A stretch of 38,927 nucleotides of DNA, from NCBI GenBank assembly GCA_002898715.1, contig BEIA01000009.1, positions 1-38,927 of the forward strand, read 5' to 3'. This document shows positions 4,390 to 19,892 of this stretch, in pieces (the first letter of the stretch is position 1; every line of letters begins with the position of its first letter). Source of the stretch: a bacterium HR24 (GTDB lineage Bacteria; Chloroflexota; Dehalococcoidia; SM23-28-2; HRBIN24). The position numbers and the translations under genes were made by a program. The notes beneath the pieces are model-generated. The model saw nothing but the letters and a program-made list of their open reading frames with translations, was not told where the DNA came from and ran no database searches.

Positions 4390-5592
4390 GTGACGACGCA
4401 GGTCATCTATACGCGCAGGCGCCTGGGCATCACGGGTAACCCCCCCTACGACGGCGAACCCTTCACGCAGTTCTCTGCCGTCACCCCGGAAACGAAGCTG
4501 GAAGACCTTAACCTGAACTGGCGCGAAATGGACCTGCCCGAAAGGGAACGCACGAAACACGTCCACCGTCTGCACCCCTATCTGGGCAAATTCATTCCCC
4601 AACTGGTCGAGATCTTTCTGCGCAAATATCGGCCGACGGTAGTGTGCGACCCCTTCTGCGGATCGGGAACAGCCTTGGTCGAGGCTAACGCCTTGGGTAT
4701 CGAGGCAGTAGGCTGCGATATTTCGCCCTTCAACTGTCTCCTGTCGAGGGTGAAGACAGCCTCGTACGATCTGCCGGTCCTGGAGGCAGAGCTCCACGAC
4801 ATACTCAAGAGGCTTCGGGAGCGGATCAAGGGCGGGCCCCAGCTTTATCTTGAGGAGATGGCTAGCGACTATCTGCGCACATGGTATACGCCTAGGGCGC
4901 GTCGCGAGCTGCTGGCCTACCGGGAGCTTATCGATCGGTATCGTTACCAGGACGTTATGAGAGTCATCCTCTCCAGAGCTGCTCGCTCGGCCCGTTTGGC
5001 TCCCCATTACGAGCTGGATTTCCCCAAGGTGCCAGTCATGGAGCCTTACTACTGCTACAAGCACCGCCGCATCTGCCAGCCTACCCAGCAGGCCCTCAAG
5101 TTCCTGCAACGCTACAGCCTCGATACGCTGCGTCGGATCCAGGAGTTTGCTGCCCTGAAGACCGAGGCGAAGGTCATGATCCTCCTGGGGGATGCACGGG
5201 AGGTCGAGTTCCCGCCCTGCGACATGGTGATAACTTCGCCGCCGTATGTTGGTCTCATCGATTACCACGAGCAGCACCGCTACGCCTTTGAACTGTTGGG
5301 TCTCGAGGAGCGGCGAGAGGCCGAGATCGGTGCTCCCTGGAAGGGGAACTCGGAGCGTGGAGTGCGAGAGTACATCGACGACATGGTGGCCGCCTTCCGC
5401 AATGTGATGCGCGCATTGCCCAAAGATGGCGTCATGGTCGTCATTATCCACGACCGCAGGAACATTTATGATGCCATCGCCGAGCAGCTGAAGGTGAGGA
5501 CGGAATACCGGCTCAAGCGACACGTCAACCGGCGCACGGGTCGCCGCGCCGATGACTTTTTCGAGGACGTGATAGTGTGGCGCAAGTCATAA
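4390..5592 (+). CDS. Type II DNA methyltransferase (SPPY type, probably N4-cytosine)
   Basis: A 400-residue AdoMet-dependent DNA modification enzyme. In order: LHPYLGKF (61-68, motif X-like region before the AdoMet pocket), motif I DPFCGSGT (87-94) followed by GCDISPFN (motif II region), a long central stretch of about 170 residues that probably holds the target recognition domain, then catalytic motif IV TSPPY (282-286). This motif order resembles the alpha class. SPPY favours N4-cytosine methylation over N6-adenine, but the motif alone is not decisive. The GTG start follows AAGGGAGG by 7 bases. The nuclease gene starts inside its last codons (16-base overlap). Base composition is less GC-rich than the flanking pur genes. 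Inferred role: protects the host from the partner nuclease. Confidence 0.88.
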   Translation: MTTQVIYTRRRLGITGNPPYDGEPFTQFSAVTPETKLEDLNLNWREMDLPERERTKHVHRLHPYLGKFIPQLVEIFLRKYRPTVVCDPFCGSGTALVEANALGIEAVGCDISPFNCLLSRVKTASYDLPVLEAELHDILKRLRERIKGGPQLYLEEMASDYLRTWYTPRARRELLAYRELIDRYRYQDVMRVILSRAARSARLAPHYELDFPKVPVMEPYYCYKHRRICQPTQQALKFLQRYSLDTLRRIQEFAALKTEAKVMILLGDAREVEFPPCDMVITSPPYVGLIDYHEQHRYAFELLGLEERREAEIGAPWKGNSERGVREYIDDMVAAFRNVMRALPKDGVMVVIIHDRRNIYDAIAEQLKVRTEYRLKRHVNRRTGRRADDFFEDVIVWRKS

Positions 5593-6391
5593 CCCCTTCA
5601 GTAAGAAGTCAAATACTCGATTACTTGAGGGGCTTTATGCAACAGGTTTTGGACAAAGTGAAGCCGGTCTCAAGAGCTGCTGACAGTTTTAGGCCCACGC
5701 GTAACTATGACCCTGACGGGGACATCAAGCCTTTCCATGAAGCCTTGGTGCCGGAGGGTGTGCTCAGAACGAGTGACTTTGAACGATCTTTCTCCACTGC
5801 CCTGGGAACCACCTTTGAGGAAGTCGCTAAATTGATTGCTCGCCAGCACTATGCGATAGCTGAGCGTGCATACAAATTTGACGTGGTAATCCCACGCGTT
5901 GCGCTTGATACGATTGACGGAATAATCTCGGATATCTCTAGCGACGGAATGCTGGGACGGTATCACGATTTTGTACGATCCGTATGCCAAGCTTATCGGG
6001 GGGATCTGGTTACGAGACGCCCTATCGTGATCGACCTGTACCTTAAGTCTTTTGAAGGGTACGAATTGTTCTTCGAGATGAAAAGTCCGAAGCCCAACAA
6101 GGACCAGGCAGTTGGGTCCGTAAGGAAACTACTGATGGTTCACGGCGTTCGAGGTGCTGGTCCGCCTCATGTGTGCACTTATTACGCAATGGCTTACAAC
6201 CCGTATGGGGACAACCGCAGTATTTACTCCGAAAATGTCGCAAGGAAATACCTTGACTATGACAACCTGGTACTGATCGGCAAAGAGTTCTGGGATCTCA
6301 TAGGCGGGCAAGGGGCATATGAGGAGGTGCTTGAGCTATATAGACAAGTGGGGCAGGAATTCAAGGATCACGTCTGGAAGACATTAGCCTC

Positions 6392-6395
<4 letters not shown>
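5577..6395 (+). CDS. Type II restriction endonuclease, TdeIII-like
   Basis: A 272-residue protein encoded directly after, and overlapping, the methyltransferase. Residues FHEALVPE, FERSFSTALGTTFEEVAKLIA and FFEMKSPKPNKDQA resemble the TdeIII family of type II nucleases as I recall it; that family has been linked to GGNCC sites, but the site here is not established. A PD-(D/E)XK core fits Asp153 (VIDLYL) followed by Glu167-Met-Lys169. The GTG start at 5577 is inferred from the overlap; ATG at 5637 is an alternative. Base composition is markedly lower in GC (one hand-counted line, 5881-5940, is 28 of 60) than the pur genes, a sign of acquisition. Its stop overlaps the purH start as ATGA. Confidence 0.8.
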
Positions 6396-7939
<1,544 letters not shown>

Positions 7940-9900: not shown

Positions 9901-9924
9901 ATGGTTGCAGGAGGTGATAGACCC

Positions 9925-11310
9925 ATGGCCTTGTTCCGTCCCGACCCCACTTTCTACCCGTCGCCGCGGCTGGCCATGCAGGCCCCGCCCGAGTCCCTGG
10001 CCTACGTGGCCTTGCTCAAGGTAGGCAACGGCCGTCCCGACGCCCTGGCCGTGGTGGACGTGGACCCCAGGTCGTCCACCTATGGCCAGGTCGTTGACCG
10101 GCTGGACCTGCCCAACGTGGGCGACGAGCTGCACCACTTCGGCTGGAACGCCTGCTCCTCTGCCCTTTGCCCGCACATGCCCCATCCCCACCTGGAGCGG
10201 CGCTACCTGCTGGTGCCGGGCCTGCGCTCCTCCCGCATCTATGTGGTGGACACGCGGCCCGACCCCGCTAGGCCGCGCATCGTCAAGGCCATCGAGCCCG
10301 AGGAAGTGAAAGGGCGCGCCGGTTACTCGCGCCTGCACACCGTCCACTGCGGCCTGGACGGCATCTACATCTCGGCCCTGGGGGGCGCCGATGGCGACGG
10401 GCCCGGCGGCATCATGGTGCTGGACCACGACACCTTCGAGGTGCTGGGCCGGTGGGAGATCGATCGCGGCGACCAGTACCTGGCCTACGATTTCTGGTGG
10501 CACCTGGCCCACGACGTGGTGGTCACCAGCGAGTGGGCCACCCCCGACCTGTTCGAGCATGGCCTGCGCCTGGAGGACCTGGTGGGACGTCGCTTCGGCC
10601 ACCGCCTCCACTTCTGGGACGCGCGCCGACGCAAGAAGGTAGCCACCGTCGACTTCGGCGACGAGCACCAGATGGTGCTGGAGCTCCGGCCGGCCCACGA
10701 CCCCACCAAGACCTACGGCTTCGTCAACGTGGTAGTCAACGTCAACGACCTGTCCAGCTCCATCTGGGTGTGGCACCGCAGCAACGGCTCCTGGGACGCC
10801 AGGAAGGTCATCGACATCCCGGCCCAGCCAGCCGACAAGGACAAGCTGCCGCCGGCCCTCCAGGACGTGGGCGCGGTGCCGCCCCTGGTCACCGACATCA
10901 ACCTGTCCCTGGACGACCGCTTCCTGTACGTCTCCTGCTGGGGCACCGGCGAGCTGCGCCAGTACGACGTCAGCGACCCCTTCAGCCCCAAGCTGGTCTC
11001 CACCGTGAAGCTGGGCGGCATCGCCGACCCCGGCGCCCACCCCGCCGGCCACGCCCTCACGGGCGGGCCGCAGATGGTGGAGGTCTCCCGCGACGGCCGC
11101 CGCGTCTACGTCACTAACTCCCTCTACAGCTCCTGGGACGGCCAGTTCTACCCGCAGGGCCTCAGAGGGTGGCTGGTGAAGGTAGACGTGGGCGCCGAGG
11201 GGGGCATGGAGGTGGACCGCGACTTCTTCGTTGACTTCGGCGAGGCGCGCGCCCACCAGGTGCGGCTGCTGGGCGGCGACGCGTCGTCCGACTCCTTCTG
11301 CTATCCGTAG
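9925..11310 (+). CDS. Selenium-binding protein 1 family (SBP56 / methanethiol oxidase homologue)
   Basis: A 461-residue beta-propeller protein of the SELENBP1/MtoX family; characterised members oxidise methanethiol to formaldehyde, H2S and H2O2 and bind copper. Family blocks visible: ESLAYVALL near the start, DELHHFGWNACSS with the conserved His-His and Cys, YSRLHTVHCGLDGIYISALGG, AYDFWWHLAHDVVVTSEWATP, GHRLHFWD, VTDINLSLDDRFLYVSCWGTGELRQYDVSDP, LTGGPQMVEVSRDGRRVYVTNSLYSSWD and a C-terminal SSDSFCYP. ATG at 9925 is chosen because AGGAGGTGAT (a full anti-16S match) precedes it by 6 bases. There is no signal peptide, although characterised bacterial MtoX proteins are exported, so a cytoplasmic role is likely here. 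A membrane protein follows after 6 bases. Methanethiol oxidation is plausible but unproven. Confidence 0.88.
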   Translation: MALFRPDPTFYPSPRLAMQAPPESLAYVALLKVGNGRPDALAVVDVDPRSSTYGQVVDRLDLPNVGDELHHFGWNACSSALCPHMPHPHLERRYLLVPGLRSSRIYVVDTRPDPARPRIVKAIEPEEVKGRAGYSRLHTVHCGLDGIYISALGGADGDGPGGIMVLDHDTFEVLGRWEIDRGDQYLAYDFWWHLAHDVVVTSEWATPDLFEHGLRLEDLVGRRFGHRLHFWDARRRKKVATVDFGDEHQMVLELRPAHDPTKTYGFVNVVVNVNDLSSSIWVWHRSNGSWDARKVIDIPAQPADKDKLPPALQDVGAVPPLVTDINLSLDDRFLYVSCWGTGELRQYDVSDPFSPKLVSTVKLGGIADPGAHPAGHALTGGPQMVEVSRDGRRVYVTNSLYSSWDGQFYPQGLRGWLVKVDVGAEGGMEVDRDFFVDFGEARAHQVRLLGGDASSDSFCYP

Positions 11311-11316
11311 CCGCGC

Positions 11317-11976
11317 ATGGGCGTCTGGGAGCTTTCCGCCCTGAGCGGGCTGGCCCTGGCCGGGGTGCTGCATGGCATTAACCCGGCCATGGGCTGGCTC
11401 TTTGCCCTGTTCTTCGGCCTGCACCGCGGCGGCCAGCGGGCCCTGTGGCTGGCCCTGGCCGCCGTGGGGCTGGGGCACCTGTTAGCGCTGGCCCTCTCGC
11501 TGGCGCTGTTGCTGGTGGCCAGCTCCACCGTACCCATCGGCCCCCTGCGCATCGCCGCCGGCGCCGGTGCCCTCGCCCTGGGCCTGGGCAGGCTGCTCTC
11601 GTGGTGGCGACACCCAGGGTGGCGGGGCCTGAACCTGGGCTATGGCGAGCTCGTCCTGTGGGCGGCGGCCATGGGCCTGCTCCACGGGGGCGGACTGGCC
11701 TTCGCACCGCTGGTGCTGGGGGAGGAGAGGGCCAGCCTGCTCGACTTCGGGCACTGGGTGGTGCCCACGGCCGTGCACGGGGCGGCGGCGATGGCCACCA
11801 TGGCCGCCTGCGCCGTGGCCGTGCAGCGCTGGCTGGGGCTGATGGCCCTGCGCCGCTACTGGTTCAACTTCGACCTGGCCTGGGGAGTGGCCCTCATCGT
11901 CATCGGGCTGGCGGTGCTGCTGATGCCCTGGCTCCTGCCGGTGGAAGAGGCAGCCCACCACGCGCCGGGGGTCTGA
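11317..11976 (+). CDS. Six-helix membrane protein with intramembrane histidines, paired with SBP
   Basis: A 219-residue integral membrane protein. Predicted helices lie at about 5-35, 42-68, 72-92, 106-132, 143-168 and 182-206. Histidines occur inside or at the ends of the helices in small-residue contexts: VLHGINPAMGW, LGHLLALAL, LLHGGGL, FGHWV and AVHGAAA. This layout is reminiscent of NicO/LysE-type metal or small-solute transporters, but I do not recognise the exact family. The start six bases after the SBP gene (GCGC then ATG) implies co-transcription. Given that SBP/MtoX proteins are reported metalloenzymes, supply of metal or export of a volatile sulfur product are two reasonable guesses; neither is shown by the sequence. 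Confidence 0.75.
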   Translation: MGVWELSALSGLALAGVLHGINPAMGWLFALFFGLHRGGQRALWLALAAVGLGHLLALALSLALLLVASSTVPIGPLRIAAGAGALALGLGRLLSWWRHPGWRGLNLGYGELVLWAAAMGLLHGGGLAFAPLVLGEERASLLDFGHWVVPTAVHGAAAMATMAACAVAVQRWLGLMALRRYWFNFDLAWGVALIVIGLAVLLMPWLLPVEEAAHHAPGV

Positions 11977-12007
11977 AGGCGGTCTCGGACGTTTGGTCGA
12001 AGGCCCT

Positions 12008-12082
12008 CTAAACAGAAAGGGCGGCCCACCGAGAGCGAACGGAGACTGATGCCACGCGCCGGATACTCCTGTCCTGGCTCAT
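12008..12082 (-). CDS. Tiny 24-residue frame with near-perfect ribosome site
   Basis: ATG at 12082 is preceded by GGGGGTGAT, an eight-of-nine match to the anti-Shine-Dalgarno complement, with a 4-base gap. The peptide begins MSQDRS, contains IRRVASVSVRSRW and ends AALSV before TAG. It is rich in Arg and Ser and has no Cys. The last codons lie inside the 3' arm of the long inverted repeat described at 12010-12276, so translating ribosomes would open that stem, as at an attenuator. No minus-strand gene follows downstream. It may be a real micro-protein, a leader peptide without its target, or chance. Confidence 0.3.
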   Translation of the reverse strand: MSQDRSIRRVASVSVRSRWAALSV

Positions 12083-12276
12083 GGCTATCACCCCCTTCGC
12101 TTCGGCGTTCCGCTGGCTAGGGAGGTCGCCCCGAAGAACCGGTGCCCGGTGGGGACACCGCCCGAGGCCACCGACGGGCCCACGCACAGCCGGAGCTGCG
12201 GGTGGGCCGCCCTCGGCCCCGGGCTCCCGGGCGGGCCCAGACCCACCGGGCCCGCGCCCCTCAGGGGCGGCCTCCA
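12010..12276 (-). ncRNA. Candidate structured RNA in the 411-base gene-poor gap
   Basis: The gap 11977-12387 has no credible long gene. A perfect 13-bp inverted repeat joins 12201-12213 (GGTGGGCCGCCCT) and 12018-12030, closing a 170-base interior. On the minus strand the distal arm is followed by TTTCTGTTT, terminator-like, and the transcript would begin after a TAAAAT box at 12288-12283. Smaller hairpins are visible: CGCCCC-TGA-GGGGCG near the 5' end, and GCAGC-TCCG-GCTGTGC and GGTG-TCCC-CACC inside the closing stem. I looked for signatures of RNase P RNA, tmRNA, SRP RNA and the cobalamin, TPP, SAM, fluoride and Moco riboswitches and found none. The opposite strand lacks the T-tract, so minus is favoured. 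Identity unknown. Confidence 0.35.
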
Positions 12277-12387
12277 CTTATTATTTTACAGCGGCCCTGC
12301 CGTCCTCGAGACGAGGGGGCCACGAGACGCTCGGCATCCGTTGACCGCGCAGGCCGGGCTCTCGCTGGCGGGTGGCAGGTGGCCGCT

Positions 12388-13413
12388 CTACAGTGCCAGC
12401 GGTCGTGGGCGTCGCAGGAGGCGCCAGCGGGTATCGAAGCGCCACAGCCCCGCCTCGCGGGCGCAGGCGAAGGCCTCCGCCATCTCCTCGCTCCGGACGT
12501 GGCGGTTGATCTCGGCGTATTTGGGCTCCGTCTTCGCCTTCCAGGCCGGGTAGTACTGGTCCATGATGTTCACGTAGGTATCGGGAGAAAGCTCGCGGGC
12601 CAGGAAGCGCATGATCTCTCGCGTGTCCTCCAGGAGGCCCGGCATCACCAGGTGGCGCACCAGCACCCCCCGCAGGGCCAGGCCGTTCTCGTCCACCACC
12701 AGCTCCCCCACCTGCTCGTGCATCGCCTTCACCACCTGCCGCGCCACCTCCGGATAGTCCGGGGCCAGCAGGTACTTGCGGGCGTGCTCCCGCTGCCACA
12801 GCTTGAAGTCGGGCATGTAGATGTCCACCACGCCCTCCATCAGGCGGATGGAGTGCAGGGAGTCGTAGGAGCTGGTGTTGTAGACGATGGGAAGGCGCAG
12901 GCCCATCTCGATGGCGTAGGGCAGCGCTTCCAGCACCTGGGGCACCACATGCTCGGGAGTAACGAAGTTGATGTTGTGGCACCCCATCTCCTGCAGGCGG
13001 AGCATGATGCGGGCCAGGTCCCGCGGCGATACCTCCTCCCCCTCGCCGATCTGGCTCACTTCGAAGTTCTGGCAGAATACGCAGCGCAGGTTGCACCAGG
13101 AGAAGAAGATGGTGCCCGAGCCGCGCCAGCCCCGCAGCACGTCCTCCTCGCCGAAGTGGGGAAAGAAGGAGGCGACGCGGGCGTAGCGCCCCACCCTACA
13201 CACCCCGAAGCGGTCGTGGAGTCTATCCACGTGGCAGTCGCGGGGGCAGACGGTGCAGTCGGCCAGGGCAGCCAAGGCCTCCTCCACCTTCTCCTTCAGG
13301 CGCCCCTCCTCGTAAGTCCTCAGGTAGGCAGGGACGAAGTTGCGACGGGGCAACACGAAGCGGCCGTCGCCGTGCACCTCCCTGGGCACATCTGGGGCGA
13401 TTGTCTGGAGCAT
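12388..13413 (-). CDS. Radical SAM protein, PflX type (COG1313-like)
   Basis: A 341-residue radical SAM enzyme. The cluster motif CX3CX2C is SWCNLRCVFC (Cys107, 111, 114). An N-terminal cysteine block, CTVCPRDCHVDRLHDRFGVC, precedes it, as in the PflX group of pyruvate formate-lyase activase-like proteins. Other landmarks are INFVTPEHVVPQVLEAL, YNTSSYDS, VDIYMPDFKLW and LVRHLVMPG. No pyruvate formate-lyase or other glycyl-radical enzyme is visible in the window, so the activase label should not be taken literally; the substrate is unknown. ATG at 13413 lies two bases after the ttuA stop, so it is the last gene of a ttuB-ttuA-rSAM run. Family firm, role open. Confidence 0.88.
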   Translation of the reverse strand: MLQTIAPDVPREVHGDGRFVLPRRNFVPAYLRTYEEGRLKEKVEEALAALADCTVCPRDCHVDRLHDRFGVCRVGRYARVASFFPHFGEEDVLRGWRGSGTIFFSWCNLRCVFCQNFEVSQIGEGEEVSPRDLARIMLRLQEMGCHNINFVTPEHVVPQVLEALPYAIEMGLRLPIVYNTSSYDSLHSIRLMEGVVDIYMPDFKLWQREHARKYLLAPDYPEVARQVVKAMHEQVGELVVDENGLALRGVLVRHLVMPGLLEDTREIMRFLARELSPDTYVNIMDQYYPAWKAKTEPKYAEINRHVRSEEMAEAFACAREAGLWRFDTRWRLLRRPRPLAL

Positions 13414-18514: not shown

Positions 18515-18584
18515 GAGGAGGCGGCGGGGGGACCACGGGGCCAGCACCGGCCGCCCCGGCGCCGGCCAGGAGTGAGGGAGGGAG

Positions 18585-19892
18585 ATGGCCGCAGCCGACC
18601 TGCGCCTGCTCGCGGGGCTGGCCCTGCTCCTGTTCGGAGGGCTGGCCGCCTACCTGGCCGTGGGCGAAGGCGAGGGGGCCGTGGCCCTGGTCCTGGCCGG
18701 CGCCTGCCTGGCCCTGCTGGTGCTGGCAGCGGCCTTCCTGGGGAGGAAGCGGCTCGGTGCTCTCGGTCAGGCCCTGTACTCTCTGGCTCGCACCGGTAGC
18801 CCGGGGCCCCGCAGCCCCGACGTTCTGGCCGAGCCCCTTTCGGCGCTGGCCGAGGCCCTGCGCAGCGCCTGGGACGAGCGTGACCTGCTGCTGGCCGCCC
18901 TCGATGCCAGCCCCGATGGCCTGCTGGTGCTCGATGCCGAGGGCCGGGTCCGCTTCACCAACGCCGCTGCCGCCTCCTTCCTGGGGCGGGACAGGGCATC
19001 CCTCGCCGCCCAGCCGCTGGCCTGGTTCCTGCCCCACGAGGCCGCGGTGGAGGCCCTGCGCCGCGTGCGCCGGGAGGGTGGCACCGTCACCCTGGCCGTC
19101 GAGGGGCCGGGCGGCCGGGCCCTGGAGCTGACCGCCGCCGCCGTCGGCATCGGCGGCAGGGTACTAGTGGCCCTGCGCGACCTGACCGAGACCCGGCGGG
19201 TGGACCAGGTCCGGCGGGACTTCGTGGCCAATGTCTCCCACGAGCTGCGCACACCACTGGCCGCCCTGCGCTCAGCCCTGGAGACCCTCCGTGCCGGGGC
19301 CATGGACGACCCCCAGGCACGCGAACTCTTCCTCACCCGGGCGGAGGCCGAGGCCGAGCGCCTCACTCGTCTGGTGGAAGAGTTGCTGGAGCTCTCGCGA
19401 CTGGAAGCGGGGGTGGGGCTGACCGCCTCGGCGCCGGTGGACGTGGGCCAGGTGCTGCTGAGGGCGGTCGAGCGCATGGAGCCTCAGGCCCGGCGGGCAG
19501 GCCTCGACCTCGAGTTGAAGCTACCCCCGTCCCTCCCCTCCGTCCTCGGCGACGCCGAGCGGCTGGAACGGGCGGTGGTGAACCTCCTGGACAACGCCAT
19601 CAAGTTCACCCCTCCCGGTGGTTCCGTCACGGTGATGGCCAACGCCGCCGAGGAAGGCGTGCTGGTGATGGTCCAGGACACGGGCATCGGCATCGACGAG
19701 CGGGACCTGCCGCGCATCTTCGAGCGCTTTTACAAGGCCGACCGCTCCCGTCACCAGCCCGGTGCCGGCCTGGGCCTGGCCATCGTCAGGCACATCGTCG
19801 AGGCCCACGGGGGCCGCGTGTGGGCGCAGAGCACGCCCGGCGAGGGCTCCACGTTCGCCATACTCCTGCCCTCGCCCGCCAGCGACGGCTGA
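18585..19892 (+). CDS. phoR: PhoR-type sensor histidine kinase
   Basis: A 435-residue membrane histidine kinase. Two hydrophobic helices (about 6-27 and 31-52) with a very short GEGEG link anchor it, as in PhoR proteins lacking a large outside domain. A PAS domain follows (about 95-190; SPDGLLVLDAEGRVRFTNAAA). The phospho-acceptor is His219 in VANVSHELRTPLAAL, then the ATPase domain with NLLDNAIKFTPPGG (N box), DTGIGIDERDLPRIFERFYK (G1/F box) and GAGLGLAIVRHIVEAHGG (G2). ATG at 18585 follows GGAGGGAG. It lies 70 bases after the regulator gene. PhoR normally reads the state of the Pst transporter through PhoU, and both are encoded just downstream. Confidence 0.92.
   Translation: MAAADLRLLAGLALLLFGGLAAYLAVGEGEGAVALVLAGACLALLVLAAAFLGRKRLGALGQALYSLARTGSPGPRSPDVLAEPLSALAEALRSAWDERDLLLAALDASPDGLLVLDAEGRVRFTNAAAASFLGRDRASLAAQPLAWFLPHEAAVEALRRVRREGGTVTLAVEGPGGRALELTAAAVGIGGRVLVALRDLTETRRVDQVRRDFVANVSHELRTPLAALRSALETLRAGAMDDPQARELFLTRAEAEAERLTRLVEELLELSRLEAGVGLTASAPVDVGQVLLRAVERMEPQARRAGLDLELKLPPSLPSVLGDAERLERAVVNLLDNAIKFTPPGGSVTVMANAAEEGVLVMVQDTGIGIDERDLPRIFERFYKADRSRHQPGAGLGLAIVRHIVEAHGGRVWAQSTPGEGSTFAILLPSPASDG

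Follow-up and report, generated by a model that had tools for sequence, protein, structure and literature searches.

A conserved and strongly folded intergenic block proposed as a noncoding RNA gene in the bacterium HR24

The gap and its neighbouring genes

The stretch of DNA analysed here, called the window throughout, is 38,927 nt long. Its sole long intergenic gap covers 411 nt (11977-12387), the next longest being 203 nt. The original prediction for this locus had described the gap as the only long one, and this is borne out: an apparent larger gap at 5593-6427 is occupied by a TdeIII-type restriction-enzyme gene. The latter belongs to a type II restriction-modification pair (4390-6395, plus strand), in which an N6/N4 DNA methylase gene is followed by the gene for the TdeIII-family restriction endonuclease. 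The pair sits between an AIR synthase-related gene and an AICARFT/IMPCHase (purH-like) gene, the codon usage of the endonuclease gene is unlike the rest of the window, and the pair looks recently acquired.

The gap is bordered by two convergent genes:

11317-11976, plus strand: membrane-protein gene, downstream of the SBP56 gene; left border of the gap
12388-13413, minus strand: radical SAM gene; right border of the gap

The SBP56 and membrane-protein genes form a two-gene unit (9901-11976, plus strand) which is common to other families of the phylum. The start of SBP56 is probably at 9925, behind CAGGAGGTGAT. The membrane-protein gene has no Pfam or NCBIfam match. In the phylum sample, about 40 other genomes carry the operon, and both genes are present at 27 of the 28 loci that were fetched. 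Among the remaining close relatives searched, the membrane-protein gene was not found, which suggests horizontal acquisition of the two-gene unit. Since the pair is present elsewhere in the phylum and the membrane-protein gene is absent from close relatives, the genus may have acquired the operon, with the candidate RNA described below lying at the junction.

Fold, border signals and conservation of the minus-strand block

The window was scanned for stable folds in segments of 270 nt on both strands (290 segments and strands in total). The minus strand of 12008-12277 has the lowest z-score (-7.5) as well as the lowest energy of all 290. This fold is exceptional, given a mean z-score of -0.4 with a standard deviation of 1.2 and a value of -4.0 for the next unrelated stretch. 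The plus strand of the same stretch comes second (z -4.8). The features of the block are as follows, ordered along the minus strand:

12293-12321, minus strand: small hairpin immediately preceding the -10 box; the sister species also has a hairpin here, of different sequence; weak (z -1.6 and -1.9)
12283-12288, minus strand: -10 promoter box TAAAAT, within GCTGTAAAATAATAA, recognised from sequence by its match to the usual -10 box of the genome
12010-12278, minus strand: whole candidate RNA, about 265-270 nt, with predicted ends; strongest fold in the window and a conserved block in the sister species
12119-12278, minus strand: domain 1, a long rod with inner hairpins, 160 nt; from the minimum-energy and two-sequence consensus folds
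12201-12213, minus strand: 5' arm of a 13-bp stem, an alternative pairing outside the minimum-energy fold
12114-12118, minus strand: linker AGCCA, 5 nt, single-stranded and identical in both species; unpaired probability above 0.6 in both
12021-12113, minus strand: domain 2, a second hairpin running into the U tract; from the minimum-energy and consensus folds
12087-12097, minus strand: AAGGGGGTGAT, resembling a ribosome-binding site and paired within domain 2; 10 of 11 positions match AAGGAGGTGAT
12008-12082, minus strand: 24-codon open reading frame, MSQDRSIRRVASVSVRSRWAALSV, whose stop codon falls where the U tract ends
12064-12071, minus strand: apical octaloop of domain 2, (C/G)AGGAGUA, unpaired in both species
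12018-12030, minus strand: 3' arm of the 13-bp stem, an alternative pairing outside the minimum-energy fold
12010-12018, minus strand: terminator-like U tract, TTTCTGTTT in DNA and UUUCUGUUU in RNA (UUUUUGUUU in the sister species), recognised from sequence

In the predicted fold, about 74% of the candidate RNA is paired. The unpaired inner pieces of at least four bases are limited to one tetraloop, the AGCCA linker, the (C/G)AGGAGUA octaloop and the U tail. The consensus fold of the two known sequences comprises 101 pairs. On the minus strand, the structured block extends from 12278 to 12021 and is followed by the U tract as far as 12010; the span first proposed was 12003-12288.

A TAAAAT box and a T-rich tract had been noted as the minus-strand borders, and both are present where they were claimed, the tract right behind the distal arm of the 13-bp repeat. 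The box is of the type used by the genome. TANAAT occurs at 13 sites in the window, and 11 of the other 12 sit 4 to 106 nt upstream of a gene start on the same strand; the box of the candidate is the only intergenic site not followed by an annotated gene. In a species of the same family (G002), the RNase P RNA gene is preceded by GCTGTAAAATGATGA, which shares GCTGTAAAATNATNA with the GCTGTAAAATAATAA of the candidate. No -35 box was seen upstream of the candidate RNA. At the other end, the U tract follows the base of domain 2 and resembles the T tracts which end the tmRNA genes of the genomes compared; a simple terminator scan of the gap reports no site. On the plus strand, a T-rich tract also follows the rod.

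The block is found at the same place in a sister species of the same genus (G001). Its conservation exceeds the background. The two copies are 95-96% identical, a level similar to that of the neighbouring coding regions (93-95%) and higher than at the third codon positions of these genes (84-89%). The two ends of the same gap reach 71% and 79%, and a further two gaps in the shared stretch show 64% and 76% identity. Conservation extends to the loops and linker in addition to the stems. The copies differ by 12 substitutions and two one-base insertions. When these changes were scattered randomly over the window copy, 0 of 1000 mutants reached the stability of the actual sister copy. The reverse direction is the weaker test, with 27 of 1000 as stable, and the plus strand shows some effect too (24/1000).

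Pairing is largely preserved on the minus strand. In the own fold of the window copy, one pair is broken where 4.2 would be expected (P 0.014), and in that of the sister copy two are broken against 5.0 expected (P 0.027). Four changes fall within helices of the consensus fold (U-A to U-G, U-G to C-G, G-C to G-U and G-U to G-C); all are one-sided and all retain pairing. This holds only if the RNA is the minus strand, since G-U on one strand becomes C-A on the opposite one. In the plus-strand fold, all three changes falling in pairs break them. With two closely related sequences only, none of the 101 pairs is changed on both sides. Judged from this sequence comparison, the changes in the sister species largely preserve pairing on the minus strand. 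Fold and conservation together support the proposal of an unassigned structured RNA candidate on this strand, bordered by promoter-like and terminator-like sequences.

A perfect 13-bp inverted repeat had also been reported, and it is present where it was described. Its arms, AGGGCGGCCCACC (12018-12030) and GGTGGGCCGCCCT (12201-12213), are 100% complementary and enclose 170 nt. A repeat of this kind arose in 4 of 3000 dinucleotide shuffles of 12003-12288 and in 26 of 3000 of the whole 411-nt gap; taken alone, it exceeds chance. The further proposal that it closes the domain is not supported, as the stem is missing from the minimum-energy fold in both species. Forcing it raises the energy from -185.2 to -166.9 kcal/mol in the window copy (a penalty of about 18) and from -195.2 to -173.3 kcal/mol in the sister copy (about 22). 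Neither arm differs between the two species in which the block is known. Because of this conservation, and because the distal arm abuts the U tract, we keep the stem as a possible alternative or transient pairing.

Distribution and comparison with known RNA classes

Searches with a covariance model that covers domain 2 only took in 393 genomes from the class and 400 from the phylum. Just the two species were found among them; all other matches in the class, phylum and lenient searches are at chance level. The best of these, in G660, has an E-value of 0.0016 per genome, about 0.6 such matches being expected in 400 genomes; it falls within an open reading frame and has no U tract. The second-best is a simple repeat. 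Three exact 18-base matches in named genomes do not extend beyond the pattern. In G002 and G003, which belong to the same family, no copy of the block was found; there the radical SAM gene has a different gene behind it, which reads like an alcohol dehydrogenase, and no RNA. Nor do the SBP56-operon loci fetched from elsewhere in the phylum match the RNA model, and the candidate was rejected as a part of that operon. The best reading of these searches is that the candidate RNA would be restricted to one genus.

The absence of a common RNA class, presumed from the start, was upheld by a search of the window with the 4227 models of Rfam 15. No family reached its gathering threshold, and at E up to 10 only chance-level scores appeared, the best being aspS (17.9 bits against a threshold of 42.5), which lies beside the block. 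The sister copy gave no Rfam match at all, and ARAGORN found no tRNA or tmRNA. RNase P, SRP and tmRNA are rejected as identities because each of these housekeeping RNAs is present elsewhere in the genome, above the cut-off.

6S RNA is a regulatory RNA a few hundred bases long that stands alone and is largely double-stranded. Its rod is defined by a large central single-stranded bubble, and it binds RNA polymerase and templates a product RNA. The candidate also appears to stand alone and is predicted to be mostly double-stranded. In contrast to 6S RNA, its rod is devoid of a large central bubble in the fold of either species, it is longer, it carries a second hairpin and it was not found in other genera. 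Both the RF00013 model and this anatomy lead us to reject 6S RNA as the identity. As a separate observation, the same model detects no 6S RNA in 31 genomes of the group (G000-G030), and it is positive in 5 of 14 control genomes.

Other identities were also rejected. The next gene downstream is oppositely oriented on either strand, which speaks against a riboswitch or attenuator leader. The block is single-copy in the genome and hence not a repeat. It is not a mobile element either: there is no phage match, plasmids give short chance matches only and viral contigs hold no exact match to the core. A long protein is rejected as well, since two single-base differences in length disrupt an 89-codon minus-strand open reading frame in the sister species.

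In the scheme of a published survey of structured RNAs in intergenic regions, fewer than five representatives make a motif a low-ranking candidate (PMC8632094). The low-ranking candidates of that survey resemble the present one in having complex stems and no downstream gene to control; they end in a terminator, the present one in a terminator-like U tract. Also described there is HRC-28-1, with 33 examples mainly in Polynucleobacter, which was interpreted as a 3'-UTR element (PMC8632094). Like HRC-28-1, our candidate is oriented away from its neighbour; unlike it, it has two examples and a -10 box of its own. Low-ranking candidate is the right rank until more copies or a transcript appear.

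Interpretation and rival explanations

We consider it reasonably probable that the block is a stand-alone minus-strand gene for a structured noncoding RNA of about 265-270 nt which belongs to no known family. Its transcription, both of its ends and its whole mode of action are what we infer. Transcription would start about 5-7 nt past TAAAAT, and the start so predicted coincides with the first bases of the rod (12276-12278). The transcript would fold into the long rod of domain 1 and the second hairpin of domain 2, whose base would lead into the U tract and end the transcript. No minus-strand gene lies directly downstream, so the RNA should not be an ordinary riboswitch or attenuator leader and would be expected to act in trans as a folded molecule. 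Since about 74% of it is predicted to be paired and few pieces are exposed, the likeliest action would be to present the octaloop and so bind a protein or the ribosome, rather than to pair through a long seed. The full proposal, that a new class of trans-acting structured RNA, limited to one genus of uncultured bacteria, offers its AGGAG octaloop to the ribosome or a protein, is a doubtful one at present.

The main competitor, unlikely in our estimate, is that no independent RNA exists and that the block consists of back-to-back terminators of the convergent operons, or of the 3' UTR of the radical SAM mRNA. The rod with ACTTATTATTTTA behind it would terminate the SBP56 operon on the plus strand, and domain 2 with TTTCTGTTT behind it would terminate the radical SAM operon on the minus strand. 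T-rich tracts indeed follow folded DNA on both strands between convergent genes, as in bidirectional intrinsic terminators, the plus-strand T tract and the TAAAAT box are complements of each other, and no other terminator is evident in the gap. The block is, however, far bigger than a terminator requires, and its loops and linker are conserved along with its stems. Its changes suit the minus strand and break all three of the plus-strand pairs that they touch, and the box agrees with -10 boxes elsewhere in the genome and with that of an RNase P gene.

Less probable still is an mRNA for the 24-residue peptide MSQDRSIRRVASVSVRSRWAALSV, with the ribosome-binding site folded into domain 2, which would make the locus a regulated small protein or a dual-function RNA. 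AAGGGGGTGAT stands at normal spacing before the ATG. Near-perfect sites of the AAGGAGGTGAT type number three in the window against 0.33 expected, and the only two others resemble the ribosome-binding sites of genes. Start, frame and length are retained in the sister species, but both changes in the reading frame alter residues (D to E and S to F) and none is silent. Moreover, the frame spans only the last quarter of the conserved block, it has no match in plasmids, and with its stop codon at the very end of the U tract, termination there would leave it stopless.

The reading ranked least likely, and a highly improbable one, is an antisense RNA acting on the 3' end of the SBP56/membrane-protein operon. 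That possibility had been raised together with the convergent arrangement of the genes. The arrangement stands: the candidate is opposite in orientation and near the operon end, and no operon terminator is evident before the block, so that the 3' end of the operon could overlap the RNA. Antisense action itself fares poorly. The U tract stops near 12010, leaving 34 nt to the coding end at 11976; the operon is found elsewhere in the phylum without the RNA, and plain antisense pairing needs no conserved internal fold.

If the stand-alone RNA gene is transcribed, it would add a new, unclassified structured RNA to an uncultured group in which the standard model detects no 6S RNA. The candidate is compact and well bounded, which makes its transcription, fold and partners testable in vitro or in a laboratory host. 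More generally, a strand-specific pairing bias together with the -10 boxes of the genome itself can support an orphan RNA from only two sequences.

Elsewhere in the window, a 23-nt inverted repeat (18549-18571 and 18691-18713) was observed, 83% matched with a perfect core of 15 bp and arms 119 nt apart. The histidine kinase gene whose start it spans (18585) follows its response regulator gene.
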